This document shows positions 10,265 through 17,541 of a stretch of 17,914 nt of DNA, piece by piece (position 1 is the first letter of the stretch; every line of letters starts with the position of its first letter). This DNA is from Auxenochlorella pyrenoidosa (Eukaryota > Chlorophyta > Trebouxiophyceae > Chlorellales > Chlorellaceae), in contig KQ482040.1 in assembly GCA_001430745.1 (NCBI GenBank), positions 41,329 to 59,242 of the forward strand. The letters run 5' to 3'. A program made the translations under genes and the position numbers. A model generated the notes under the pieces. It was not told the origin of the DNA. It was given only the letters and a program-made list of their open reading frames with translations, and made no database searches.

Positions 10265-13200
10265 ATGGCGGCACGACTGGCCGTGCTGCTCGTGGTGGTG
10301 GCGGCGGGTGAGGCCAGCCCTTGCAGCGACGAGGCACTTGTGATGTATCCCCTGCCGCGGCTCCGCCACTGCCGCCTGCCGGCGCCGCCAGCTGGTCTGC
10401 AACTGCTTTGCTTGCCAACATGCTGCGACGAACTGGCAGTGCCTGCGTGAGCGTGCTGCAGGGACAGCCGCGAGCCTTGCCCTCGCCGCCGTCGGAGGTA
10501 TCCCTGCCAATGGGACCGGCTCAAGCCCTCCCGAGTCCCGGACATTTGCAGGCGCTGCCACCGCCGCTCGTGACGGCCCCATCAGCGCGGCGGGCGGCGG
10601 TCTCCCTTTCCAGTGCAACGTCACCTGCCCTGCCGGCCCCATGGGCCCTGTTGGTCCGCGGGGCCCGGCGGGAAAGCAGGGCGTGCAGGGGCCGCGCGGC
10701 GTGCAGGGTGAGTGCGCCTGCCTGCCCTTGAGCCTCGCACGCCTGCTGCAGTGCTGCCACAAGCGTGGTGTACACTGCTTCGCACCGCCGTGGGTTGTGT
10801 TGTCTGTTGGCGGGCCACCCCCTGCCCCAGCCCTGGATGCCCGGACAGGCCTGCCGCTCCCTGCTGTAGTAGGCTGCAGCTGCGCACCGCGACTCTGCGT
10901 GCCGCTGCCACAGTGACGAACGCCCTGCTCTTACTCCCATGCTCTCGTGCCCGGTGTGTGCAGGGCCCGCCGGGAAGGCTGGGCCAAAGGGCGACCAAGG
11001 TGCGGGCGGGCGGGCAGTGCAGGGCTGCCTGCTGCCAACAAGTGCCTGCGCCCCTGCTGTCAAGCCAGGCATGGGAGGGGCAGCCATGACGCCGGCGATC
11101 CCTGATGCCTGCCACCTTCTTGCTTCAAGCTGTGTGCCGGGACGGGGGCTGCCAAGGCTGCGGCTGCGCACCGTCGTTAGCAAGGGTTATGCCTACGCGG
11201 CAACCTGCGGTCCGCGCTGCCCCTGCGCATGCAAGCTTAAGCACAACACCCTCAGCCTGCTGCTCCATCCAACTGCCATGATCCTCCTCCGCTCTCCCTG
11301 GTGTCCGCTCTCGCAGGCCCCGCAGGCCCCGCAGGCGTGACTGGTGAGGCGCCGGGGCCTGCGTGCAGACAGTGTGCTCATGCTGCATTGGGGGCGTTAC
11401 AGCCGGCAAGCACACCAGCCTCCCCCCCTGGCCGCCTGCCCCGGCGCCGTGCACGCTTTGCCTGCATGGCCGCGGCATTTGGCAGGCTCAGCTAGTGCCA
11501 GGCTGCAAATGCCGGGCTGCCTCCCCCCAGCTGACAGCGCGCGCCGTCGAAAAGCAGCCGCTGGCCGCAGAGTTCCCTGCTGTTGCTTGATGGTCACTGC
11601 TGGCCGCAAAGCGCAGCCCCTGCGCGCGCCCTGCTGCCTGCTGTGCGCGCCCCGTCATGCGCCCTGCGCTGCGTGCGCCCTTGTGCTGCGCCGACTGGGC
11701 CTGCTGGGCCCTGCCTGTTCCCAGGCGCCCTCCCACCCCCGGGGTCCTCTCCCTGCCTGCGCGGACTTGAAATGTAGTTGATGATTTGATTGCCTACTCC
11801 TGCGCCCCTTCCTGCAGGGCCGGCCGGTCTTCCTGGATCCCAGGGCCCCGCCGGTGGGTGTCCCCAGGCAGGCTGCAGCTGCTCAGCTGAGGCAGCACGT
11901 CGCTGCCTGCCGGGCTGCAGGCAGTGCGTGCAATGCTGCCGTGCGCATGCCCCCATATGGGCATGCATGCGGCGCACTGCCGCTCCGCACAGAGAGGGCC
12001 CTGCTCAGGAGCTCACCACTGCTGCTGCAGGTCCGGCCGGCGAGCCCGGCGCAATCGGCCCCACCGGCCCCACTGGTGCCACAGGCCCGGCAGGCTCTGG
12101 CGCCACCGGCGCAACAGGCGCAACAGGCGCAACAGGAGCAACCGGCGCAACAGGACCAGCTGGAGCGGCCGGCGCCACGGGCCCTTCGGGGGTCACGCTG
12201 CTCACCGTCACCTCCCAGGCCACCTCTCAGAACTGCAACAAGACAGGATCTGTTGCGGCCTGGTCCTACACCTGCGACGTCATGACGCCCTCCTGCCCCA
12301 CCGGAACGTCGCTCACAGGTGCCCAGCGCTGACCCTGCCTGCACGCACCTGCCTGACGCAATGGCAGCTGCGGCACAGGTGGCCTGGCAGCTGCCCGGCC
12401 CACGCCCCAGCGTTGGCGCAAAGGCGCAGGCTCCTGCAGCTCCCGGGAGCGTGCAAACCCTGGCTGTGACAGGGCAGCCTCAGGGAGCGCACGCATGCGC
12501 GAAAGCACATGCCGCGCGGCACACAGCCGGCCTGCTGCGGGCGCCAGCCATGCCCAGCTGGGCTTGCCACAGCTGCTCAGCGCCCCTGGGCAAGGACTGC
12601 TCTGTGGGGCAAAGAGCTGGGCAGGTGGCACGCCATGTGATGCACCTCTCCTACACACCTTGCGCGATGGTTGCTGCTGCCTGTTGCCGACACCGACGTG
12701 CCCCATCCATGCCTCCGCTCCCCCCTCCCCCCGCCACAGGCTGCACGTGCACGCTGAGTAACTATTCTGCAGGCAACACAGCAAACCCTTGGGTGAGGAT
12801 GGATTCGATCCAAGTGGATCCGGCAGGGCAGGGGCTGCGACATGCGGCCGCCAGCGCTCGGTGCCCTGGCTGACGAGCCGCGCTGTGCGGCAGGTGGCTG
12901 GCGAGGATGGGAGCGCACGCAGGGATGAGAGGGTGAAAACCCACGAGCGGCCATACGTACCCCAACCTCCCGTGCCCCCGCCCCCCCACCCCCCACCCCA
13001 TTCCCCACCCACGCACACGATTGCGATGGCGAGGGGGGGGGGGGCCTTCTGCTCACACCACACACACACACACACACCAATCCCCAACCAACTCACCCGC
13101 AAACTGCAGGTCGTCCAGTTTTGGTTCACTTTTGGCTCCAAATGCGTCTGCCGCGTAAGCGCCGCCCGTGGCTTCACCTGTGTACCCGGCTTGTGTGGCT

Positions 13201-13472
13201 CGCTGCTCCCAGCTCCGCGGCCTTGGGCACGCTGACAAATCCCAGCCATCCAGACAGCCTGTAGTTGCACTGCCAGCCTGGCCGTGGCAGGTGCAGTCAA
13301 CACGGGCGCGCTGGGTGTGCGCCTTGCTGGGCCGACATGCGCGCTGTGTCACCCTGCCTCGCCCTGCCTCGCCCCACGTCCATCCCTGCAGTTCGCGGTG
13401 TCTGGAGCCTCCACCAACCCTGCAGTAGACACGGTGGCGGTCGTTCACTGCGTGGGGCCAACTGCAGTCTGA
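10265..13472 (+). CDS. Secreted collagen-like protein A with Cys-rich C-terminal domain
   Basis: Ten exons: 10265-10307, 10462-10497, 10552-10707, 10964-10999, 11317-11343, 11818-11853, 12031-12318, 12740-12792, 13110-13154 and 13392-13472, giving 266 aa. Residues 1 to about 27 form a signal peptide (MAARLAVLLVVVAAG core). A CNVTC motif at 48-52 carries an N-glycosylation sequon. Gly-X-Y repeats fill about 55-167: 37 triplets with one GSG break, first charged (GKQ, GPR, GPKGDQ), then Thr-rich with six GAT units in a row. The C-terminal 99 residues hold eight Cys, including paired CTC and CVC, and two more sequons (NKT, NYS); this part may drive trimerisation or disulfide linking, as in other collagen-like proteins, but I recognise no named domain. 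An extracellular or cell-wall role is inferred. Intron 2 is only 54 nt and open in frame, so it could be retained. The downstream tandem paralogue supports every junction. Confidence 0.85.
11311..11343 (+). other. Three tandem in-frame splice acceptors at exon 5 of gene A
   Basis: Three CGCAG sites end at 11316, 11325 and 11334, each followed by GC. Using any of them keeps the phase, and each step removes exactly one Gly-Pro-Ala triplet. The paralogue has only one clear acceptor at the equivalent exon (ending 15187). Confidence 0.6.
12099..12152 (+). repeat. 9-bp coding minisatellite (Gly-Ala-Thr)6
   Basis: Six consecutive 9-nt units, consensus GGCGCAACA with slight third-base variation, encode six Gly-Ala-Thr triplets in exon 7 of collagen-like gene A. 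Near-identity among units points to recent slippage or unequal exchange. The equivalent part of gene B is more varied. Confidence 0.9.
12960..13080. repeat. C-rich, poly-G and CA-repeat tract in intron 8 of gene A
   Basis: The segment holds C-runs spaced by A (12960-13010), a run of 12 G at 13033-13044 and a CA dinucleotide repeat at about 13057-13078, close to the exon 9 acceptor. The equivalent intron of the paralogue carries a similar C-rich and CA-rich tract. Confidence 0.85.
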
Positions 13473-17100: not shown

Positions 17101-17541
17101 CGCACCCACCCACTTCATGACAAATCTGCAGGTGGTCAGGTCCTGGTTTACGACCAACGGCAGATGCGTCTGCCGCGTGAGTGCAGCCCCGCGGTGCTGC
17201 CCTCCCAGCACGCCCGCCCGTGGCGCTGCCACAGCCCTCCCCAGCGGCTGCCTCCCTCTTGGGCGGGCTTGCATTCCCCAGCGGTCCGGACAGCCTGCAA
17301 AGCTGCAGTCACACTGGCAGCCGGGCACCTGCAGATGCACTCTCAGCTGATAGTGCGCTGTGTGCGTGCATGCTGCGTGCCTGCCAGCCAAGGGGAGGCA
17401 ATGCGCGAGCCACGTCACCCCGCCTTGCCCTGCCCTGCCCTGCACCCATCCCTGCAGTTTGTGGTGTCTGGAGACTGCACCAATCCAGCGGCAAATGTGG
17501 TTGCAACCAACATTTGCGCGGGTCCAACAGCGATTGGGTGA
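14183..17541 (+). CDS. Secreted collagen-like protein B with Cys-rich C-terminal domain
   Basis: Tandem paralogue of collagen-like gene A with a matching ten-exon plan: 14183-14225, 14378-14407, 14473-14628, 14854-14889, 15188-15214, 15780-15815, 15971-16303, 16637-16689, 17132-17176 and 17458-17541, giving 280 aa. It has a signal peptide (MVARLAVLLVVVAA), a CNVTC motif, and Gly-X-Y repeats over about residues 53-177. These comprise charged triplets (GKQ, GPKGDQ) from exons 3-4 and a Thr-rich GPT/GAT block from exon 7, interrupted once by GSG as in A. The C-terminal domain has nine Cys in the A pattern (SVSAWGYTCDVY, GCAC, CVCR) plus one extra (SGDC). Six exons (1, 3, 4, 5, 6, 8 and 9 compared; exon 2, 7 and 10 differ) confirm the boundaries by equal length. 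Intron 2 (65 nt) would shift the frame if retained, unlike in A. Function is unknown; an extracellular-matrix or wall component is inferred. Confidence 0.85.
16748..16786 (+). repeat. Short dispersed repeat, copy 2 (intron 8 of gene B)
   Basis: GTTCCGTT, AGACAGAC, TTAAGCCCAA and ACAAGC occur in the same order as at 13668-13710, with a few substitutions and small gaps. Its intronic location here versus a post-gene location in copy 1 argues against simple carry-over in the tandem duplication. Confidence 0.6.
16915..17106. repeat. C-rich and CA-rich low-complexity tract in intron 8 of gene B
   Basis: CA and CCA repeats at 16920-17020 are followed by a run of 15 C at 17042-17056 and repeated ACCCC units at about 17070-17100, just before the exon 9 acceptor. 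The minus strand has many closely spaced G-runs and could form a G-quadruplex. Confidence 0.9.

Follow-up and report, generated by a model that had tools for sequence, protein, structure and literature searches.

The window, i.e., the whole stretch of 17,914 nucleotides analysed here, contains two adjacent genes on the forward strand that encode small collagen-like proteins. Gene 1 (10265–13472, 254 aa) and gene 2 (14183–17541, 270 aa) each have nine exons, an intact frame and GT-AG introns (Table 1). The outer limits of the pair agree with an earlier sequence-only reading of this DNA, which had proposed nine introns and ten exons per gene. However, eight introns fit better, given that exon 1 joins the 156-bp exon directly and that the same join is found in a third gene of the family (see below). 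This join yields the same protein start in all three genes, namely, a signal peptide, Gly-Ala-(Ser/Thr/Ala)-Ala-(Ser/Ala)-Arg-Asp and, later, GGG(L/V)P-QCNVTCPAGP. A search for a tenth exon inside intron 1 returned 4, 16 and 19 in-frame candidates in genes 1, 2 and 3, with best between-gene local scores of 35, 28 and 34, and the ten-exon model is also opposed by indels of 22, 9 and 5 bases between the window copies in intron 1. We thus rejected that model, although intron 1 could still hold a copy-specific extra exon.

In the window copies, each of the eight intron pairs aligned better than its shuffled versions (200 single-base shuffles per pair, which do not preserve low-complexity runs), with z values from 6.4 to 14.7. 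Identity between the copies was 64 to 98% in exons and 53 to 68% in introns. Note that intron 7 of both genes carries C-rich and CA-rich low-complexity tracts (12960–13085 and 16900–17110). Downstream of either gene, up to where the following gene starts or the window stops, the motifs TGTAA, TGTAT and AATAAA were not found. The gene models, established by conservation, as well as selection, domain order and intron positions, are shown by the DNA itself.

Table 1. Exons of the two collagen-like genes (window coordinates).
Gene	Exon	Position	Strand	Length (bp)	Content
1	1	10265..10307	+	43	Signal peptide MAARLAVLLVVVAAG; phase 1 end
1	2	10552..10707	+	156	N-terminal domain with QCNVTC; helix begins 10635
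1	3	10964..10999	+	36	Purely helix
1	4	11317..11343	+	27	Purely helix
1	5	11818..11853	+	36	Purely helix
1	6	12031..12318	+		Remaining helix, interrupted by GS and containing GAT repeats; C-terminal domain starts 12198
1	7	12740..12792	+		Part of C-terminal domain
1	8	13110..13154	+		Part of C-terminal domain
1	9	13392..13472	+		End of C-terminal domain and stop
2	1	14183..14225	+		Signal peptide MVARLAVLLVVVAAG
2	2	14473..14628	+		N-terminal domain with QCNVTC; helix begins 14556
2	3	14854..14889	+	36	Purely helix
2	4	15188..15214	+	27	Purely helix
2	5	15780..15815	+	36	Purely helix
2	6	15971..16303	+		Remaining helix with GS interruption; C-terminal domain starts 16183
2	7	16637..16689	+		Part of C-terminal domain
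2	8	17132..17176	+		Part of C-terminal domain
2	9	17458..17541	+		End of C-terminal domain and stop

Features of the Encoded Proteins

The N-termini of both proteins are signal-peptide-like, with a 9-residue hydrophobicity peak of 3.07 at residues 7–15, and no later membrane-like stretch was present, every 19-residue window past residue 30 being at or below 1.02. The signal peptides proposed from the sequence are therefore borne out by the hydrophobicity profile. Pfam returned Collagen (PF01391) alone for both proteins, with E-values of 1.7e-16 and 5.9e-19 and scores of 60.2 and 68 bits for genes 1 and 2, respectively, against a cut-off of 27.2. A script counted 36 Gly-X-Y triplets in gene 1 and 41 in gene 2, and the 37 and 42 triplets given earlier are reached once the last triplet (GVT/GTA) is included. 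Each helix is interrupted once by a "GS", which lies ahead of a GAT triplet.

We then considered the composition of the triplets, with the last one left out. Pro occupies the X position in 17/36 and 20/41 triplets and the Y position in 2/36 and 3/41, and Thr occupies Y in 11/36 and 20/41. According to a review, Y-Thr is typical of bacterial collagens and Y-Pro/Hyp of human collagens (PMC8968730), so that the triplet chemistry looks bacterial-like, whereas the gene design, described below, looks animal-like. Sequons number three in gene 1 and two in gene 2, with an NVT ahead of the helix in both.

Downstream of the helix is the Cys-rich C-terminal domain, which had been put at 99 residues and measures 99 in gene 1 and 100 in gene 2. 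The two versions are 50% identical and have in common an NPWVV..WF core, two CxC pairs and eight Cys, to which gene 2 adds a ninth.

Searches with the Terminal Domains

No named family was found for the C-terminal domain in Pfam up to E 10. The best hits elsewhere were one unnamed PHROGs family (E 0.07, gene 1 only), an NCBIfam citrate synthase model (E 0.11, gene 2 only) and, among PDB sequences, the same penton protein twice (E 0.86 with a single sequence and 0.17 with a two-row profile), the last judged too weak; none of these was retained. The phage search gave one record at E 7, and of the pattern matches, 0/37 were confirmed in viral contigs and 0/10 in prokaryote genomes. In a large protein database, 0/35 candidates for the C-terminal domain and 0/1483 for the N-terminal 60 residues reached E<=1, i.e., no annotated algal relative of either was found. 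Although a PRP38 control showed that Chlorellaceae proteins are present in this database, the last absence is weak evidence, because a candidate must be of similar length and have 5-residue words in common with the query, and models of genes with short exons are frequently wrong. A match to a known unrelated domain was thus looked for and not found, and the earlier description of the domain as one without a named family holds for every library and collection tried. Neither protein matched the pherophorin family PF12499 (DUF3707) in Pfam, and no match was obtained in the genome, where controls gave no signal either.

A Third Gene and Selection on the Window Copies

A six-frame search of the 51.6-Mb genome (65 contigs) with PF01391 gave at least seven places at E<=1. 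Four of these belong to the window genes, and the other three to a single related gene on a different contig, C49 (L008 3197–5723). A generic Gly-X-Y probe found at least six places, all within the same three genes, and an N-terminal probe found these genes plus one chance-level match; all such counts are lower bounds, as very short exons can be missed. Weak matches obtained in the search for more copies, on C35 (E 0.39), C34 (0.08) and C2 (0.33), were judged to be chance. The third gene is a longer relative with the same N-terminus, including QCNVTCPAGP, and its 3′ end is masked.

Between the window copies, dN/dS was 0.32 overall, 0.25 in exons 1–5 and 0.40 in the C-terminal domain, values well below 1 that point to purifying selection on both copies, so that both look retained as proteins. 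The copies differ most in the C-terminal domain, where dN is 0.415 as compared with 0.089 for exons 1–5. Silent divergence was about three times lower in exons 1–5 (10265–11853 against 14183–15815; dS 0.35) than in the C-terminal domain (1.04), which perhaps reflects partial gene conversion.

Split-Glycine Exon Design

In each window gene, introns 1–6 of the eight fall behind the first base of a GGN codon (phase 1), and the last two, within the C-terminal domain, are phase 0. Four of the six split-Gly introns lie inside the helix and produce the helix-only exons of 36, 27 and 36 bp; i.e., in the collagenous region, 4/4 helix introns per window gene split a glycine codon. The third gene model has 9/9 helix introns at the same place of the Gly codon, with helix-only exons of 9, 27, 54, 18, 90, 54, 54 and 63 bp. 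We regard this model as weaker evidence than the window genes, because it was built by a scan for split-glycine exons only, the donor was chosen where several were possible, and its last two exons use a GC donor. Given that the intron position is constant, exon lengths of 9n bp follow, and the constant position is the actual finding. It is partly expected, since Gly codons are where G|G junction sites occur most often (27/62 and 35/59 by simple counting, which is mis-phased past the interruption). In fibrillar collagen genes, unlike in these algal genes, exons start at a whole Gly codon.

Two adjacent exon-plus-intron units of the third gene are identical at 214/249 aligned bases (86%), and differ by a 9-bp exon step from 54 to 63 bp; a third copy begins at 5701. 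At this level of identity, the duplication of exon plus intron appears to be recent.

Genomic Context

A multi-exon gene for a PRP38B-type splicing factor with an Arg/Asp-rich tail lies at about 3879–8849 (+) in the window. Its best match was Micractinium sp. CCAP 211/92 (97% identical over 84% of the query), followed by Chlorella sorokiniana (69%). The light-harvesting family PF00504 matched at 33 places genome-wide, of which three lie on the contig that carries the window (C47:155652–157082). On the basis of the PRP38 match and the light-harvesting places, we took the host to be a green alga of the Chlorellaceae, close to Micractinium. Together with PF01391 scores over the cut-off and hydrophobic N-termini, these algal host genes uphold the view of the locus as a tandem pair of secreted collagen-like genes in a green alga. 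Two places in the genome matched PF13640, a family of 2-oxoglutarate oxygenases to which prolyl 4-hydroxylases belong, and are candidate enzymes of this kind by family membership. In addition, a Gln-rich open frame at window 419–1702 (−), 427 residues from stop to stop, is possibly a piece of another gene.

Discussion

Taken as a whole, the locus is probably a tandem duplication in the nuclear genome of a Micractinium-like freshwater green alga, with both genes working, and the product of each would be a small secreted collagen-like protein forming a trimeric rod of the wall or cell surface. In the proposed working, the signal peptide would bring the chain into the ER, and the private 8-Cys C-terminal domain may join three chains in register, a role suggested by its position and by analogy. 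The 37 to 42 triplets would then zip into a rod of approximately 32 to 36 nm, as calculated with a rise of 0.286 nm per residue, whose opposite end could be stapled by disulfides through the C-NVT-C element just ahead of the helix. The helix would be held mainly by X-Pro, by Y-Thr, perhaps glycosylated, and by a charged KGD stretch, and not by Y-hydroxyproline. Its stability at growth temperature may be limited, because it is short, interrupted once and poor in Y-Pro. The rod would be exported to the wall or cell surface and serve there as a structural spacer or fibre unit. Helix length would evolve through duplication of exons that start and end inside a Gly codon, since gain or loss of such exons keeps the triplet register; in the third gene, the duplicated units and the positions of their introns can be seen in the gene itself.

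The gene design recalls that of animal collagens, in which the helix is likewise encoded in small 9n-bp exons, and introns inside Gly codons are a stated feature of collagen IV genes (PMC5395295). The 54-bp helix exons, three of which occur in the third gene model, are as in animal fibrillar collagens, and 54/63-bp steps through unequal recombination have been proposed for animal collagens (PMC4450265). In contrast to animal collagens, however, the rod is short, Y-Pro is far rarer than the Pro/Hyp share of near one third or more of Y positions expected there (human values in PMC8968730), and neither the NC1 (C4) domain that ends collagen IV and spongin nor a fibrillar C-propeptide domain was found in Pfam up to E 10.

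We judge it possible, with the odds clearly against it, that the product is an adhesin or recognition protein in which the rod holds the C-terminal domain off the cell as a binding head and is not a structural fibre, an arrangement that has been proposed for collagen-like adhesins of bacteria. A short rod with a single end domain would suit this role, and strong divergence, as seen for the C-terminal domain, is frequent for binding heads. Bacterial Scl1/Scl2, Lcl and BclA have a short helix rich in X-Pro and Y-Thr together with end domains (PMC8968730), and the NCBIfam models of the bacterial adhesins SclB, Lcl and SclA matched our proteins (E 2.8e-18 to 2.4e-16). However, these matches are confined to the helix and fall far below the curated cut-offs (66.1 of 325, 60.3 of 500 and 60.4 of 400 bits, respectively), the C-terminal domain differs from the bacterial ones, and searches of Pfam and PDB sequences recognised no binding fold in it, lectin-like or otherwise. 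An anchor was also not found, and no LPXTG was noticed.

The bacterial-like triplets with their Y-Thr (PMC8968730), and the fact that viruses are known to carry collagen-like genes (PMC9614988, PMC12220804), raise the question of whether the genes were acquired horizontally, from a bacterial or giant-virus donor, and gained their introns later. We consider such an origin unlikely, since relatives of the C-terminal domain were not confirmed in the viral contigs and prokaryote genomes or convincingly in phages, the family is spread over two contigs, and each gene has eight introns, which bacterial collagen-like genes do not have. As in the earlier reading, which counted nine, the introns argue against a recent contaminant of bacterial or viral origin; a transfer that took place long ago and involved only the helix would be compatible with these results. 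It is hardly credible that the pair is a contaminant of the assembly, a decayed gene or an open frame that arose by chance in DNA whose high GC content favours Gly, Pro and Ala codons, given that the 1.5-Mb contig also bears light-harvesting gene pieces and an algal PRP38, that the PF01391 places found are confined to three related genes, and that dN/dS is well below 1.

A green-algal collagen is not new in itself. Ulva mutabilis has been reported to have 28 collagen genes and U. compressa four (PMC9266709), and collagens in Ulva are also mentioned elsewhere (PMC10762512), so that the earlier remark that secreted algal collagen-like proteins with a dedicated C-terminal domain are little described was overstated. 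The Ulva collagens belong to the Ulvophyceae and are described as animal-protein-like (PMC9266709). In a literature search covering few subscription journals, no collagen gene from a trebouxiophyte was found among the matches listed, and the collagen in a Micractinium paper (PMC12837426) is tannery waste and not from the alga. The sequence-only reading noted neither the split-glycine design of the exons nor the third gene with its duplicated exon, and the interest of the locus lies in this exon grammar and in the bristle hypothesis that follows.

Bristles of Micractinium are described as protein without cellulose and often as a response to grazers, and several species are bristle-less under standard conditions (PMC8894098). 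Building on the preferred reading of the products as structural rods, we would offer only as a long shot that they belong to a lineage-specific algal collagen family that reached the animal-type split-glycine 9n-bp design independently and whose rods build cellulose-free protein bristles or colony fibres against grazers.

The exon-repetition model for animal collagen genes is based on genes so old that their first steps can no longer be made out clearly. A green alga with the same exon grammar, in which units are still 86% identical, would make that model testable in an independent or very deep case. Furthermore, the collagen-like rods are concrete candidates for the bristle material of Micractinium, and may shed light on how algae construct extracellular structures from protein.
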